Source: a virus
IMG/VR virus record: IMGVR_UViG_3300027721_000029
Location: 1 to 42,224 of that record
Direction: 5' to 3' (one strand)
Length of the DNA: 42,224 bases
In this document: positions 8,860 to 14,140 of the stretch, one piece after another
How positions within the stretch are numbered: position 1 is the stretch's first letter
Layout of the letters: every line of letters begins with the position of its first letter
Notes under the pieces: model-generated
Seen by the model: only the letters and a program-made list of their open reading frames with translations
Databases searched by the model: none
What the model was told of the DNA's origin: nothing
Program-made: the position numbers and the translations under genes

Positions 8860-9086
8860 GCAGCGGCCGGTATGTGATGCGGGGCAGGGTGTTTCAAGGG
8901 CGGGCGTTTGCTGGGTGGGCGCTGGCGAATAGTGGCGTTACTGTGGTAGTTGCCAATCCCACAACGCGGCTAAAGATTGTGGGTACAAGTCGGCAACGGT
9001 TGACGATGGAAGGCACTTCGAGAGAACGCCTGCAGACCGTTGGCGTGAGCAAACAGAGACTATCATTGACAGGTGCAAGCGAATGA
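8856..9086 (+). CDS. Small protein with four 10-residue repeats
   Basis: 76 residues. The C-terminal half is four consecutive decapeptides with pattern R-L-x-x-x-G-x-S-[RK]-[QE]: RLKIVGTSRQ, RLTMEGTSRE, RLQTVGVSKQ, RLSLTGASE. This suggests a short beta-solenoid or beta-spiral, as in fibre shafts. It lies in the tail-fibre cluster, overlapping both neighbours by four bases. Confidence 0.6.
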   Translation: MSSGRYVMRGRVFQGRAFAGWALANSGVTVVVANPTTRLKIVGTSRQRLTMEGTSRERLQTVGVSKQRLSLTGASE

Positions 9087-9469
9087 CACAGCAGACACAC
9101 AGACGGCGGGTTGGCGATACGAGAACTGTCCTTCCGGTGACATTACAGCAGCCGAACGAGTCAGGCGTTTTGGCTGCTGTGGATCTGGCAGGCAAAACAG
9201 TGCAATTTAAGATGGTGAACGCCGCAACTAATGCTGTCGAGATTGCGTTGACGTCAACAGGCGTGAGCGTGGTGACTGCTGCGAGTGGCACGGTGAACTA
9301 TGATTTCAGCGGGGCCGGGGTTGACACGGCGGGGGTGTATTGGGGGACGTTTGTGGTCACGGAAAGCGGGGAGACTGATTCGTTTCCAGTGATACAAAAG
9401 GACCTGAAAATCATAATCGACAGCGACACAATCACGGGGCAGGAGGCGTATGAATTGGCCCTGAGATGA
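9083..9469 (+). CDS. BppU-like baseplate upper protein
   Basis: 128 residues. RRVGDTRTVLPVTL, then DLAGKTVQFKMVNA, GTVNYDFSGAGVDTAGVYWGTFVVTESGETDSFP follows the layout of the N-terminal domain of BppU-like baseplate proteins (VGDT...DLTGatVxFxm...Y.w...dtG.Y...f.vt...etfP). These domains attach receptor-binding modules to the baseplate. It is the last gene before the structured gap at 9470, so it may be the last late gene of the packaged genome. Confidence 0.65.
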   Translation: MTQQTHRRRVGDTRTVLPVTLQQPNESGVLAAVDLAGKTVQFKMVNAATNAVEIALTSTGVSVVTAASGTVNYDFSGAGVDTAGVYWGTFVVTESGETDSFPVIQKDLKIIIDSDTITGQEAYELALR

Positions 9470-9726
9470 CATGCAAAAACGATGCGAAAACCAGTCCCCC
9501 TAGGGGGGACAAAAACGCATCAAAAAACGATGATTTTCGTTTCAAAAACCTAGTGTTTTCATTGGTAGAAATGTGGCAAAAGTGACTGAAAACGATCAAA
9601 AAGACTGGGTTTTGAGGGGGTCTAGGGTCCTCCCAGGGGGCCGGTAGGGGGTCGCGGGTTCTCAACTGATGACATTTTTTGCGCATAAGGAAATTTTTGA
9701 CAGGGATACTACACAAGGTGAAAACA
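9470..9726 (+). other. Structured non-coding gap, candidate packaging site
   Basis: About 257 bp without a convincing gene. GTCCCCC/GGGGGAC (9494-9500, 9504-9510) forms a tight hairpin enclosed by a second dyad GATGCG/CGCATC (9481-9486, 9516-9521). AAACGA/TCGTTT (9525-9530, 9537-9542) forms another. AAACGAT-type words recur at 9477, 9525 and 9592. Four G runs (9616-9620, 9625-9627, 9636-9640, 9647-9651) could form a quadruplex. It lies between the end of the tail genes and the terminase operon, the usual place of cos or pac sites and of a late promoter. Confidence 0.5.
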
Positions 9727-10302
9727 ATGGAAAAAACGGGGAAGGGGCAAGCCGGGAAACTGGAGCATATCGCAACGGCGGAACTGATTCCCTACGCACG
9801 CAACGCACGCAAACACAGTGACCAGCAGGTGGCACAGATTGCCGGGAGCATTCAGGAGTTTGGCTTCAATGCTCCGGTTCTAATTGACGGACAGAACGGC
9901 ATCATTGCAGGCCACGGGCGAGTCATGGCGGCCAACCTACTGAAACTGGAGTCAGTCCCTTGCGTTCGATTGTCGCATCTCAGCGACGCACAGAAACGAG
10001 CGTATATCCTGGCAGATAACAGGATCGCCCTGAACAGCGGCTGGGATGAGGCAATGCTGGCGAATGAACTGCAGGACCTGCACGCTGATGACGTGGATCT
10101 GGGGTTGACGGGGTTTGATGCGGATGAGTTGTCGAAGATGCTGGAACTTGAGGCGGGGGAAGACGAAAAAGCAGACGAAGGGCTGACGGTTGGCGCCGTT
10201 GAATATCGCGTGGTGACGATCACATCCGGCGAACACGATCAGTCCCAACTGATCACAGAACTGGAAGGGCGAGGGTACAAATGCCAACCGTTAATGTCGT
10301 AG
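9727..10302 (+). CDS. ParB N-terminal domain (ParB/Srx-like) protein
   Basis: 191 residues. LIPYARNARKH (20-30), QVAQIAGSIQEFGFNAPVLID (34-54), GIIAGHGRVMAANLL (58-72), VPCVRL and the following helix carry the whole ParB N-terminal domain, including the GxxR nucleotide/phosphate-binding motif as GHGR (62-65). There is no helix-turn-helix DNA-binding domain behind it; the C-terminal part is acidic. Phages use stand-alone ParB domains as nucleases, CTPase-like switches or companions of DNA-modifying enzymes. AAGGTG supports ATG 9727. It overlaps the ABC-GNAT fusion gene by 22 bases, so the two are probably one functional unit. Confidence 0.8.
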   Translation: MEKTGKGQAGKLEHIATAELIPYARNARKHSDQQVAQIAGSIQEFGFNAPVLIDGQNGIIAGHGRVMAANLLKLESVPCVRLSHLSDAQKRAYILADNRIALNSGWDEAMLANELQDLHADDVDLGLTGFDADELSKMLELEAGEDEKADEGLTVGAVEYRVVTITSGEHDQSQLITELEGRGYKCQPLMS

Positions 10303-11390
10303 TGGGGGGCGATCTGGATTTAAGTATTCGGACGCGTCAAGTGTGCGGAATGTTTGACTGTCCACCGGAAACAAAACAGACTCGCCAATGGCTAGCAAAT
10401 TTTCCGATTGAAGAAAAGAAGTGGAGCGTCGGACTAATTGTCGGGCCGTCCGGATGCGGAAAATCAACCTGTGCAAAAGCTCTGTGGCCGAACGAATACG
10501 AGCACGTTTTGCAATGGGGCAAACGGTCGATTATCGACGGCTTTCCTGCGGCACGAACGGTCGAAGAAATTGCGTCCGCGTTAAACAGCGTAGGATTCTC
10601 GACCGTCCCAGCTTGGCTTCGACCGTATCACGTTTTGAGTAATGGCGAGAAGTTTAGGGCAGACATAGCACGAAGAATGCTGGAGCAAGACGGGATCATC
10701 GTTATCGACGAGTTCACAAGTGTAGTTGATCGGCAAGTGGCGAGCGTGGCTTGTCACAGCGTTCAGAAATTCATTCGGAAGAATGAGCGGCAATTAGTCG
10801 CTGTGACGTGCCACCATGACGTGATTGATTGGCTGCAACCTGACTGGGTGTTTGAGCCTGCGACACTGCAGTTTGAATGGAGGTGCCTTCGGCGACGCCC
10901 AGAAATCACAATTGAGGTGGCACGACTCCCCTACAAGGCGTGGGAGCTATTCGCACCGTACCACTATCTAACAGCGGAGTTGAATCGGTCGGCAACGTGT
11001 TTCGGGTTGTGGGCAAATGGAACGCTGGCCGCATTTGTCGGCGTTCTTCATCGTCCGCATCCGACAGCAACAAACATCAAATCTGTTTCCCGTGTTGTCA
11101 CTCTTCCGGATTGGCAGGGAATGGGGCTCGCGTTTGTGTTAATGGAAACAATTGCATCTGCGTACAAGGCGACAGAATTCAGATTTTGCAATTACCCTTC
11201 TCATCCGCAGTTCGTAAGGGCGCACGGTAAGGCGTGGAGATGCAACAAAAGGCCAGGTAAGGCGACGTCCAAATATTGCCCAAAGACGGCGAAGTTGTCG
11301 AAAGGCACAGCGAAACAAAGACCATGTGCAGTGTTCGAATACATTGGACCAGCAATGAGTTTGAAGGAAGCGAGGAGGCTACTCACATGA
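10281..11390 (+). CDS. ABC-type ATPase fused to GNAT acetyltransferase-like domain
   Basis: 369 residues. The N-terminal half is a single ABC ATPase: Walker A GPSGCGKST (55-63), signature LSNGEKF (119-125), Walker B IIVIDEF (139-145) and H-loop in VTCHHD (~178). The C-terminal half (~215-310) looks like a GNAT fold: AFVGVLHRP strand, then RVVTLPDWQGMGLAFVL (271-287), the acyl-CoA-binding motif A. This architecture matches COG2401-type proteins. No membrane domain, so it is not a transporter. Partnership with a ParB-domain protein beside the terminase suggests work on phage DNA, perhaps base acylation as by the GNAT-fold Mom protein of Mu; that is inference. Confidence 0.75.
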   Translation: MPTVNVVVGGDLDLSIRTRQVCGMFDCPPETKQTRQWLANFPIEEKKWSVGLIVGPSGCGKSTCAKALWPNEYEHVLQWGKRSIIDGFPAARTVEEIASALNSVGFSTVPAWLRPYHVLSNGEKFRADIARRMLEQDGIIVIDEFTSVVDRQVASVACHSVQKFIRKNERQLVAVTCHHDVIDWLQPDWVFEPATLQFEWRCLRRRPEITIEVARLPYKAWELFAPYHYLTAELNRSATCFGLWANGTLAAFVGVLHRPHPTATNIKSVSRVVTLPDWQGMGLAFVLMETIASAYKATEFRFCNYPSHPQFVRAHGKAWRCNKRPGKATSKYCPKTAKLSKGTAKQRPCAVFEYIGPAMSLKEARRLLT

Positions 11391-11710
11391 CTGAAACCGA
11401 ACTCCTTACCGACCCAAAGCACACCCGCGGCGACCTTCGGCAAGTGGAGACCGCAATCCGCAAAGGCTGGCAGATACCTGACCAGTTATTCGAAAAAGCC
11501 GCAATCGTAGCACAGACGATTCTGGTCAAGGGCAGCAACAGGGAAAAGGTGGCTGCGCTGCGGGTATTGTTGGCGATGAACGAGCAGAATAACCCGACGC
11601 CGGTACTGGTTGCGCATCAGCATTTACACATGACAGGCGGCACAAATTCGGAGCCAGCAATTGACCAGAAGCGACGCGAATTATCTGACCGAATTGCTCG
11701 CCTCGGCTGA
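11387..11710 (+). CDS. Hypothetical small protein next to terminase
   Basis: 107 residues, ATG at 11387 with AGGAGG upstream, overlapping the end of the ABC-GNAT gene. Mostly helical; residues ~40-65 (VAQTILVKGSNREKVAALRVLLAMNEQ) look like a small helical repeat. Its last 50 bases overlap the terminase small subunit frame. No family recognised. Confidence 0.6.
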   Translation: MTETELLTDPKHTRGDLRQVETAIRKGWQIPDQLFEKAAIVAQTILVKGSNREKVAALRVLLAMNEQNNPTPVLVAHQHLHMTGGTNSEPAIDQKRRELSDRIARLG

Positions 11711-12230
11711 GTCTCCGGAAGATCTGCAGGCCGTTGAAGAGTTGCTGGCAGAACAAGAGCGAGCCGAACGAACGCGGGATAAGTGGGTATGCCGGACGCT
11801 GGCAGAAGTGGCTGAGTTCTTTGGGCTGGCAGTCCAGACCGTGAAGCAATGGCGAATTGAATCGCCTCCCATGCCGGGGGCGGATGGCAAATATCCACTT
11901 CGGGAGATTGTTCAGTGGCGACTGAACAAGCTGGCAGGCAGTTCGGTGCTGGACGCAAAGCGTCAAGCGGATCTGGAATCAATCAAGTTGGTCAACGAGA
12001 AGCGGGCGATGGAAAACGCCCAGAAGCGAGGACTGCTAATTGAACGGGAAGAGGTCGAAAGGGATATGGCTTTGCTGTGGAGTCGTCTGGCCGCACGACT
12101 GACGGGCGTTGCCGATCGGGTTACAACGCTGGTTCCTGCGGATCTGAAGGCGACAACAAAAGACAGAGTCGAACAGGAAATCAGAATCATCCAAAAAGAG
12201 TTCGTCGATTCACTGGGAGACCTAATTTGA
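11661..12230 (+). CDS. terS: Terminase small subunit
   Basis: 189 residues from a TTG start, chosen because GGAG (11650-11653) is seven bases upstream and no suitable ATG exists. CRTLAEVAEFFGLAVQTVKQWRIESPPMPG (~44-73) is a winged-helix/HTH segment like the Nu1-type DNA-binding domain, PLREIVQWRLNKL completes it, and the rest is a long coiled-coil helix for oligomerisation, ending in a region expected to bind TerL. Recognises the packaging site in the viral DNA. Stop overlaps the TTG of the large subunit gene. Confidence 0.75.
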   Translation: MTRSDANYLTELLASAESPEDLQAVEELLAEQERAERTRDKWVCRTLAEVAEFFGLAVQTVKQWRIESPPMPGADGKYPLREIVQWRLNKLAGSSVLDAKRQADLESIKLVNEKRAMENAQKRGLLIEREEVERDMALLWSRLAARLTGVADRVTTLVPADLKATTKDRVEQEIRIIQKEFVDSLGDLI

Positions 12231-14140
12231 GCCGGCTGGTGGTCGAAGTCTGTCGGGAAATGATGCGACCGCGGATACAGGAATCCGCGGCGGATTGGTT
12301 ACGCACGTCATTCTACGACATCACGGGCCGGGCGTTTGATGAATCAATGGTTCCATGGGTTACGGCTCCACAAGGGCCATGCTGGGCATACGACAGCCAA
12401 CAATTCAGAACGATCTGGCTGCAATGGGCGGCGAGAATGTTCAAGACTAACTTCGGATTGGCAATGCTAATGCGCGGCATGGACCAGCGACCTGAGGAGA
12501 CTATGTTCGCGACGCCTGACGAGACGAACTGTAAGAGCGTATTCGGGCGGCTCTGGAAGATGATTGAGAACTGCCCACGGCTACGCGATCAGGCACCGAT
12601 CCTGCAAAGACAATCGAAGACCAGAATCCAGTTGCGGCGGTCTGTGTGTCACGGTGCCTGGCCACGGGGCAAAAGCAGACTGGCTGACAAGTCGATCAGG
12701 ACCGGACACGGCAACGAAATCGACAAGTGGGTGCAGGAAATGACGTCAACGGAAGGCGATCCGCTGGAGCGATTCCGCAAGCGCGGGGCGGAATACCCTG
12801 ACCGAAAATTTGTGCTGGAGTCGACGCCGAGCGTGAGAGGCAAAAGCAGCGTTGAAACAGGGCTGCTGCAGTCTACTCATCATCGGTATTGGGTTCCGTG
12901 TCCGTCGTGTCACAAGTTTCAGACGATTGAGTTTGGCGATGGCCAGCGGCCGGGCGGGATATTCTTCGAAAAGTTGCCGAGCGGCCAATCGGATAAGGAG
13001 CTGGCCAGGCGGACGGCGTATTATGTTTGCAGGCACTGTGAAGGCCACATTTCGGACATGCACAGACCGCAAATGATGATGAATGGGGTCTGGATTCCGG
13101 CAGGATGCGAGCCGAATCATGATAAGGCCATGACAGCGAGGGATTTTGCCCCCGATGATCTGTCATGGATGACGGGCGAGCCGACGCGATGGGGGCTGGA
13201 ATATGGGTGCCAAATCAGCGTTTTTTACGCTCTTTTTCACGGTTGGGGGCAAATTGCGGCCGATTTCGTCGGAAAGTGCAAAAATCCGGCAAAATTGCGG
13301 CAATGGATTAACGAAGACAAAGGCGAAACATGGGAGCCGCGGCGGTCAAAATCGACGCCCGAAAGGGTCGGGGAACGGCTAAAAACGTCGATTCCGCGGG
13401 GTGTTTGCCCGGATTGGGGGCGTTTGCTGACTGTTACAATCGACCAGCAGGCGGCAGACGGTGGTTTTCGGCTGTGGGTGGTGCTGGCCCATGGTACTGA
13501 TTGGCGTTCGCACGTCGTTGACTACGGGCTAAGTCTGACGCTGGAAGAAATCTGGAACGACATCGTAATCAAGGGGTATGTTCATGCTGACGGCGGTAAT
13601 CATATCATGCCGCGGGCTGTGTCTGCTGACTCAGGATGGAACACGAAGGCCACCTACGACTTTTGCAACTCACATCAGGGCATGGTCCCTTGCAAGGGAG
13701 CTAACACGGACCTGCAGGGCAAGCCGTACAAGTTGAGTGCGGTGATGGATGGCGATCACAAGGGCCAGTTGCTGTTCACGGTGGCAACAGACTACTGGGA
13801 AACAGACCTGCAGGCGAGACTTGAGGACCGCGCGCCTGGCGAGGCAGAAAGTCTGTCACTGTGTGCAGGTGCCGAACGCGATGGCGAGTTCCTTGAGCAG
13901 CTTTGTAATGCGACAATCGACGACAGAATAGACAGCCGCGGAAACGCAAAACTGTTGTGGGTGAAAAAAGACGAAAATGCAGGGAATGACTTTCGTGATG
14001 CGGTGCGGTATGGCTTAGCGTTGGCTGTTTGTTATGCTGATGAAAATGGCGGGTTCCCTGCCAGGTCAGAAATCAAAACGAAGCGGAGTGTAATCAATGC
14101 AGGCGAGGGACGGCCGGACGGCAGGAATTGGCATGAATAA
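12227..14140 (+). CDS. terL: Terminase large subunit (GpA-like)
   Basis: 637 residues, the usual length for lambda GpA-type terminases. ATPase: a degenerate Walker A (ARMFKTN, 69-75), Walker B with NEIDKW (163-168) and coupling motif LESTPS (198-203). A zinc ribbon follows (CPSC 225-228, CRHC 268-271), characteristic of GpA. The nuclease domain begins with VTIDQQ (~403-408). Packages DNA into procapsids and cuts it. TTG 12227 was chosen because GGGAG is seven bases upstream and it overlaps the TerS stop (TTGA). The longer upstream reading frame lies wholly inside terS and is not needed. Confidence 0.9.
   Translation: MSRLVVEVCREMMRPRIQESAADWLRTSFYDITGRAFDESMVPWVTAPQGPCWAYDSQQFRTIWLQWAARMFKTNFGLAMLMRGMDQRPEETMFATPDETNCKSVFGRLWKMIENCPRLRDQAPILQRQSKTRIQLRRSVCHGAWPRGKSRLADKSIRTGHGNEIDKWVQEMTSTEGDPLERFRKRGAEYPDRKFVLESTPSVRGKSSVETGLLQSTHHRYWVPCPSCHKFQTIEFGDGQRPGGIFFEKLPSGQSDKELARRTAYYVCRHCEGHISDMHRPQMMMNGVWIPAGCEPNHDKAMTARDFAPDDLSWMTGEPTRWGLEYGCQISVFYALFHGWGQIAADFVGKCKNPAKLRQWINEDKGETWEPRRSKSTPERVGERLKTSIPRGVCPDWGRLLTVTIDQQAADGGFRLWVVLAHGTDWRSHVVDYGLSLTLEEIWNDIVIKGYVHADGGNHIMPRAVSADSGWNTKATYDFCNSHQGMVPCKGANTDLQGKPYKLSAVMDGDHKGQLLFTVATDYWETDLQARLEDRAPGEAESLSLCAGAERDGEFLEQLCNATIDDRIDSRGNAKLLWVKKDENAGNDFRDAVRYGLALAVCYADENGGFPARSEIKTKRSVINAGEGRPDGRNWHE

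Follow-up and report, generated by a model that had tools for sequence, protein, structure and literature searches.

A ParB-domain protein and an ABC ATPase-GNAT fusion beside a phage terminase as a probable DNA-base modification cassette

ParB proteins can act as CTP-dependent DNA clamps, ABC cassettes of the type considered here dimerise on ATP, and GNAT domains with a QGxG-type motif use acyl-CoA, with proteins, small molecules and RNA also among the molecules that GNATs acylate. The fusion of an ABC ATPase to an acetyltransferase is known as COG2401, and an ATPase and a GNAT are also combined in one protein in TmcA/NAT10, the tRNA/rRNA N4-cytidine acetyltransferases; unlike the ABC-GNAT protein discussed below, these have a RecA/helicase-type ATPase and an RNA substrate. 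For phages, Iyer et al. predicted in 2013 that a GNAT coupled to an ABC ATPase would place an uncharacterised acyl group on a base of DNA, and pT24 is given as an example (according to the accessible part of PMC7824862). The Tenacibaculum phage pT24 locus has the same domain pair as the protein studied here and matches it with 33.0% identity over 86% (E 9e-47). Since the prediction is given with pT24 and our protein matches pT24, the present pair belongs to a kind already predicted, and the idea of acylation is not new.

By the window we mean the whole stretch of DNA that was analysed, a virus record of 42,224 bases. The features of interest are the following.

9727..10302, + strand: ParB-domain protein, 191 aa (ORF list, profile searches, model, alignment)
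10204..10302, + strand: C-terminal tail of the ParB protein, ca 32 aa, proposed docking element for ABC-GNAT (profiles, alignment, model)
10281..10302, + strand: 22-nt overlap of the ParB and ABC-GNAT genes (ORF coordinates; presumed translational coupling)
10281..11390, + strand: ABC ATPase-GNAT fusion, 369 aa, phrog_11143 (profiles, tblastn, alignments, model)
10281..10892, + strand: ABC ATPase domain (alignments, structure match)
10899..11351, + strand: GNAT domain (Pfam, alignment, structure match)
10145..11385, + strand: ParB tail plus ABC-GNAT, the stretch exchanged for a Mom-family cassette in the relative L106 (comparison with L106)
11387..11710, + strand: conserved 107-aa protein between the pair and terS, where the right-hand flank of the swapped cassette starts (ORF list, Pfam scan, relatives)
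11661..12230, + strand: terminase small subunit terS, phrog_57 (PHROGs, 7.5e-15)
12077..14140, + strand: terminase large subunit terL, gpA type (Pfam, PHROGs)

The ParB ORF starts with the ATG at 9727, which has an AAGGTG upstream, and there is an in-frame TTG at 9679. A reading of this DNA made from the sequence only had stated that the two genes overlap by 22 bases and precede terS. The overlap is exact (9727–10302 against 10281–11390) and it presumably couples the translation of ParB and ABC-GNAT; the gene order is also right, although the 107-aa gene at 11387–11710 intervenes. A ribosomal frameshift yielding one fusion protein was rejected, as there is an internal ATG in the overlap and, by eye, no canonical slippery heptamer.

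The pair is widespread, as the same reading had asked to be checked. By tblastn, 77 INPHARED records match ABC-GNAT, 35 of them over at least 80% of the query, and relatives are encoded in 253 IMG/VR stretches and 439 genome stretches (one scan each). A second IMG/VR scan, with the protein of the Mu-like phage Komp_PAO1_1, gave 359 relatives, called Komp-type below. From each scan 80 loci were analysed (80 of 253, of 439 and of 359, respectively), and the non-redundant set consists of 151 representatives at 80% identity, 149 of which have upstream sequence. The 22-nt overlap recurs at 42 of the 133 non-redundant loci that bear the tail, and since the pair itself is found in hundreds of loci, chance can be excluded. 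In the firmicute phages P335, Javan523, MismyG and Vinitor-27 the ABC and GNAT parts are separate ORFs with the same 22-nt overlap between ParB and ABC, and in Pmp13 and LE4 the overlap is 19 nt.

We now consider the enzyme. That an ABC-ATPase/GNAT fusion lies beside the ParB-domain gene is borne out by Pfam and the AlphaFold model, each of which finds both domains. The 369-aa protein matches ABC_tran (1.5e-8) and Acetyltransf_1 (2e-6) in Pfam, and over its full length phrog_11143 (6.7e-98), a PHROG of unknown function; when control genomes were searched with this PHROG, ABC genes matched everywhere, so that the search is non-discriminating. In the model (pLDDT 88.9), residues 1–204 are structurally similar to ABC cassettes (1l2t, Z 15.0, rmsd 2.9, 177 aligned), as are residues 207–357 to a GNAT (1y9k, Z 14.1, rmsd 3.5, 131 aligned). 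The ABC domain has a Walker A motif at 55–63, the signature LSNGE at 119–123, Walker B with D143-E144, the D-loop Asp and the H-loop residue H178, and the GNAT domain has HY at 228–229 and the acyl-CoA motif QGMGLA at 279–284. In two alignments, of 30 and 47 sequences, little or no variation is seen at the key positions of these ABC motifs and of the GNAT Q-G-x-G; the larger alignment, from which the ABC-GNAT profile was made, comprises the window and 46 of the 80 loci from the IMG/VR scan. With intact Walker A/B, signature and H-loop fused to a GNAT, the protein is a member of the ABC ATPase-GNAT family. An ABC transporter was rejected, there being no permease match in the protein or in the neighbouring genes scanned.

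The sequence-only reading had pointed to Mom of phage Mu as a GNAT-fold protein that modifies DNA bases. The GNAT of the window is not recognisable as a member of the Mom family: 10281–11390 gives no match to the Mom family PF25680 at E ≤ 0.1, whereas the Mom genes of relatives do match, and the comparison of the GNAT domain with the Mom profile by hhalign is weak (probability 17%, 53 columns, HY aligned). A placing in the Mom family was rejected on this basis.

The partner of the enzyme is a ParB-fold protein. Its match to ParB_N in Pfam is weak (E 2.6e-4, under the curated cut-off), and the match to phrog_620 in PHROGs is strong (E 2.2e-55). The AlphaFold model has a pLDDT of 88.3 and its top PDB match is ParB-CDP 6sdk (E 1.5e-8); the globular fold spans approximately residues 12–149, with a GHGR nucleotide motif at 62–65. 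Set against ParB partition proteins, it thus has the ParB fold by both PHROGs and structure, and no ParA was found by Pfam among the eight neighbouring proteins scanned. The globular part is followed by a flexible linker (pLDDT below 60 at about 141–160) and then by a tail, modelled as one helix flanked by unpaired strand-like edges.

It is important to point out that the tail follows the enzyme. Among the 65 loci found with the ParB of the window, it is present in both ParBs that adjoin an ABC-GNAT and in none of the 63 others. At the Komp-type loci, the tail is encoded directly upstream of ABC-GNAT in 75 of 80 cases, against 6 matches among 6077 other ORFs, and the ORF in question is 47–118 aa long, mostly below 70, with no room for a ParB domain. 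Over the 149 non-redundant ABC-GNAT loci with upstream sequence, ParB plus tail is found at 95, the tail alone at 38 and neither at 16. LE4 is among these 16 by the profiles used, although its neighbour is annotated as ParB-like. The tail, formyltransferase, ASCH and ParB profiles were built from the very loci that are counted, the negative controls being the 0 of 63 and the 6 of 6077. In the alignment of paired ParBs (the window and 44 loci), three of the eight invariant or nearly invariant columns fall in the short tail, namely E169, Q172 and G183. Because the tail is partner-specific, occurs without ParB and holds conserved columns, we infer that it may be a docking element that belongs with the enzyme and not with ParB.

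In close relatives, the place of ABC-GNAT is taken by other genes. An intact ABC-GNAT is missing from all nine loci that rank next after L101 by ParB similarity to the window (L102–L110, 69–93% identity over the domain). The locus L106 is collinear with the window over 8964–10144 (76% nucleotide identity) and 11386–14126 (82%), and its TerS and TerL are 95% and 89% identical in amino acids to those of the window. Between these two stretches L106 has a Mom gene (PF25680, 3.3e-44), which falls into phrog_1384, as does Mom of Mu itself. The junction falls at ParB residue ca 139, near the end of the globular domain, and the tail and the enzyme have therefore been exchanged together.

A second relative, L102, has a ParB that is 91% identical in nucleotides to that of the window over 404 nt, and carries a Mom gene (PF25680, 5.4e-21) plus an ASCH gene. 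It also contains a 48-nt stretch that is 96% identical to 11310–11357 of the window, that is, to the end of the ABC-GNAT gene, and the frame of this relic is interrupted by a stop; after this, identity to the window from 11387 onwards is 93%. The relic (in L102:1532-1678) lies behind the Mom-family gene (L102:618-1280). It is what a gene replacement has left behind in this near relative of the phage.

In the other members of the group the slot holds a C5-cytosine methylase (L103 and L105 by PF00145, L104 by 83% identity to L103), part of a C5-methylase (L109) or Mom (L108), and L107 has the ParB fused to an N6/N4-methylase (PF01555). Eight of the nine nearest ParBs thus sit with a DNA-base-modifying enzyme; in L110 (818-1441), the slot behind ParB is occupied by a protein of 207 aa that matches nothing in Pfam or PHROGs. 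The pattern extends beyond these nine, as among 47 related tail-less ParBs (non-redundant) a DNA-modification enzyme is fused to, or encoded after, 37: 17 are long methyltransferase fusions, 13 have a Mom-like gene next and 7 a C5-methyltransferase, the remaining 10 being other cases. Further away, at L121 (4105-4914; ParB 64% identity), the next gene is a Tet_JBP oxygenase by PF12851, which PHROGs label queuine transferase. Sharing a slot is an association, not an activity.

What has been observed is that both catalytic folds are intact, that the gene overlap is conserved, that the tail is specific to its partner and that enzymes are exchanged in one slot. These results make it probable that the pair is a DNA-base modification cassette, in which ABC-GNAT would acylate the base and ParB would provide the targeting. 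In the mechanism that we propose, ParB would load on DNA as a targeting subunit that can serve different enzymes, and its C-terminal tail would recruit and hold ABC-GNAT. The ABC cassette would dimerise on ATP, and ATP binding and hydrolysis would open, remodel or scan the DNA such that bases become exposed. The GNAT would then take an acyl group from acyl-CoA and pass it to a base of the phage DNA, and this mark would shield the DNA from host nucleases. Here we infer the substrate, the acyl group, the role of ATP, the docking and the protective purpose. Points against this reading are the 16 of 149 loci with neither ParB nor tail, the other kinds of molecule that GNATs acylate, and a GNAT that is not recognisably Mom.

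The suggestion that the pair could acylate or otherwise mark phage DNA is partly supported, with a difference between its two parts. For a marking role the support from context is strong, because enzymes of established DNA-modifying classes take this position in near relatives (Mom, C5-methyltransferase and the ParB-fused N6/N4-methyltransferase, and the 37 of 47 tail-less ParBs). We are a little less sure of acylation as such, which would follow from the intact acyl-CoA motif.

The genomic position of the pair bears on the alternatives. Its presence in a packaging operon had been called unusual, a view that we cannot uphold, as proximity to the terminase recurs: a terminase gene is annotated within 5 kb downstream in nine of 18 named phages (Jace, SL25, Javan523, P335, P12024S, Pmp13, Axumite, LE4 and MismyG), the other nine being without one in the stretch viewed. 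At 34 IMG/VR loci, the largest ORF that starts within 3.5 kb downstream was classified by Pfam, and without double counting it is a large terminase or a portal in at least 16; another 15 loci had too little sequence for this tally and 5 had no such ORF. In the Mu-like Komp_PAO1_1 the ABC-GNAT gene comes after a tail-fibre assembly gene, away from the terminase, and this is the place of com and mom in Mu, which follow the tail-fibre genes and the invertase; this shared place counts in favour of DNA-base modification. Mu Gam is over the cut-off in 11 of 50 Komp-type records, and therefore only a minority of these is shown to be Mu-like. ABC-GNATs without ParB or tail were also seen among replication genes: L072 (4962-9524) has a PolA-type polymerase and a UvrD-like helicase, and L098 and L097 have annotated DNA polymerases.

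One alternative is that ABC-GNAT acylates a protein, such as the host RNA polymerase, the terminase or another packaging factor, and that ParB only delivers it to DNA that stays unmodified. The usual targets of GNATs are indeed amines, in proteins and in small molecules, and the genes adjoin terS/terL in many phages. A precedent is the phage GNAT Rac, which acetylates host RNA polymerase (accessible part of PMC7824862). However, the enzymes swapped into the same slot act on DNA bases, the Mu-like member lies behind tail genes, and a gene without ParB and tail can sit among replication genes (DNA polymerase, helicase), all of which make this option improbable.

Another option considered was that the pair aids packaging or segregation, with an SMC/Rad50-like ABC ATPase and ParB presenting the DNA to the terminase, and the GNAT serving as a DNA- or nucleotide-binding module. 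We regard this as highly improbable. The ParB fold with its CTP-type matches, the single ABC ATPase without a permease and the terminase neighbourhood would all fit, but the acyl-CoA motif of the GNAT is nearly invariant, the ABC-GNAT model has no SMC coiled coil, the position is untied from the terminase in Mu-like and T4-like members, and Mom replaces ABC-GNAT in situ. Finally, an anti-phage or superinfection defence module, restriction-like and not self-marking, is very improbable and was rejected on PADLOC. In its favour, defence genes are common in prophages, some ParB/Srx proteins may act as nucleases (accessible part of PMC12839542) and the ABC part weakly matches mad3/mad8. However, these PADLOC matches are to a partial ABC only, the match of the ParB protein to a model for type II methyltransferases comes from the ParB portion, and no nuclease is seen between the pair and terL.

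Returning to the base-modification cassette, we now turn to genes that recur next to ABC-GNAT in relatives. In a search of 50 of the 98 ABC-GNAT loci L002–L099 and 50 of the 65 ParB loci, ASCH (PF04266) was found in 16 of 50 ABC-GNAT records against 1 of 50 ParB-only records (L102, beside Mom), the control records being mostly shorter. In 14 of these 16 records, ABC-GNAT is directly followed by the ASCH gene at a distance of no more than 1.5 kb, where uniform placement would give 0.68 (P about 1e-18; distances measured from domain coordinates), and this clustering counts in favour of the cassette. In L016 the ASCH gene is instead 2.5 kb upstream, and in L009 it is 3.3 kb downstream. These genes sit right behind ABC-GNAT, often on the opposite strand (L012:6079-6540, L008:6073-6453, L011:1696-2136 and others), and one follows Mom (L102:1136-1549). 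The window itself has no ASCH match.

The E. coli ASCH protein YqfB hydrolyses N4-acyl-cytosines, including N4-acetyl-2′-deoxycytidine, with Lys21, Thr24, Arg26 and Glu74 as the residues named in the accessible part of PMC6972931 (for analogues of YqfB, see the accessible part of PMC9599836). Because of this activity, the ASCH neighbours of relatives suggest, by analogy, N4-acyl-cytosine as a candidate product of ABC-GNAT. In the octapeptide of the phage proteins, Lys and Arg are mostly kept, and the position of Thr24 is mostly Glu (K-x-x-E-x-R). With the nucleophilic Thr mostly replaced by Glu, the catalytic YqfB type was rejected for these neighbours, and for the same reason the phage ASCH proteins are as likely to be readers of the mark as erasers.

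A formyltransferase-like gene (PF00551) follows ABC-GNAT in Komp_PAO1_1, Porphyromonas phage 007a and Gordonia phage Axumite. It was found in 3 of the 68 records searched, always adjoining ABC-GNAT, and in 56 of the 61 Komp-type loci whose downstream sequence extends for 300 nt or more. Of the loci with enough sequence after ABC-GNAT, neither the 79 window-like ones from IMG/VR nor the 76 from genomes gave such a gene there. Examples are L093:7074-7691, L090:7092-7565, L095:1805-2452 and most of L246–L325. The Asn of the N-x-H motif is catalytic in PurN/Fmt-type formyltransferases. In these neighbours of relatives, which are absent from the window, it is missing in 60 of 60 matches (Gly in 58, Ala in 1, Ile in 1), so that they do not have the catalytic Asn of that type. 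In Jace, a PanD-like aspartate decarboxylase comes directly after ABC-GNAT (L082:7101-7526; PF02261, 2e-33).

One can speculate about a joint reading of all these elements, doubtful as it is as a whole, in which the phages share a plug-in platform made of a ParB clamp with enzyme-specifying tails. A beta-alpha-beta-like tail would serve ABC-GNAT, and Zn-ribbon-like or other tails would serve Mom and the C5-methylases. ABC-GNAT would generate a new N-acyl base in an ATP-dependent manner, with N4-acyl-cytosine as one candidate on account of the ASCH neighbours; ASCH would read or remove it, and the formyltransferase-like enzyme without the Asn would tailor it in Komp-type phages.

The presence of Mom and methylases in the same place of close relatives makes the published idea of DNA acylation much more believable, and the exchange of ABC-GNAT and Mom in very similar phages makes this old prediction directly testable, sharply and cheaply. 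If it is true, a base modification yet to be measured is encoded at several hundred loci of phages and prophages. New acylated bases would bear on restriction resistance, sequencing artefacts and enzyme tools, and the tail offers a way into the question of how DNA-modifying enzymes are attached to clamps of the ParB type.

In the literature searched, no measured DNA modification was found for phages that carry the pair. Phage eta has a ParB, and its DNA is without a modified base by HPLC; the words acetyltransferase and ABC are absent from the accessible text of that paper (PMC3918226). For LE3/LE4, the ParB and ABC genes are placed under replication, with no function stated in the accessible part of PMC6078989. 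The accessible text of PMC11780129 contains neither GNAT nor ABC as a word, and the corresponding parts of PMC10853773 and PMC7641849 do not describe the pair. In the CC-licensed PMC texts, which do not include Iyer et al. 2013, neither the tail nor the slot swap is described, and the same holds for the ASCH and formyltransferase partners. Among the texts consulted, the ABC-GNAT prediction is described only in PMC7824862, and in its accessible part the predicted family appears without mention of a ParB partner, the tail, the enzyme swap or the ASCH and formyltransferase neighbours.

Two known systems share the slot or the ParB domain. Mom of phage Mu (PF25680, phrog_1384) is a DNA modifier of the GNAT superfamily that occupies the identical slot in L102, L106 and L108, but it has no ABC domain, which the protein of the window does. 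The phage ParB-methyltransferase fusions (phrog_498) have the same ParB domain as their N-terminus, with 79% identity in L107; there the enzyme is a fused N6/N4-methyltransferase, whereas in the window it is a separate ABC-GNAT.
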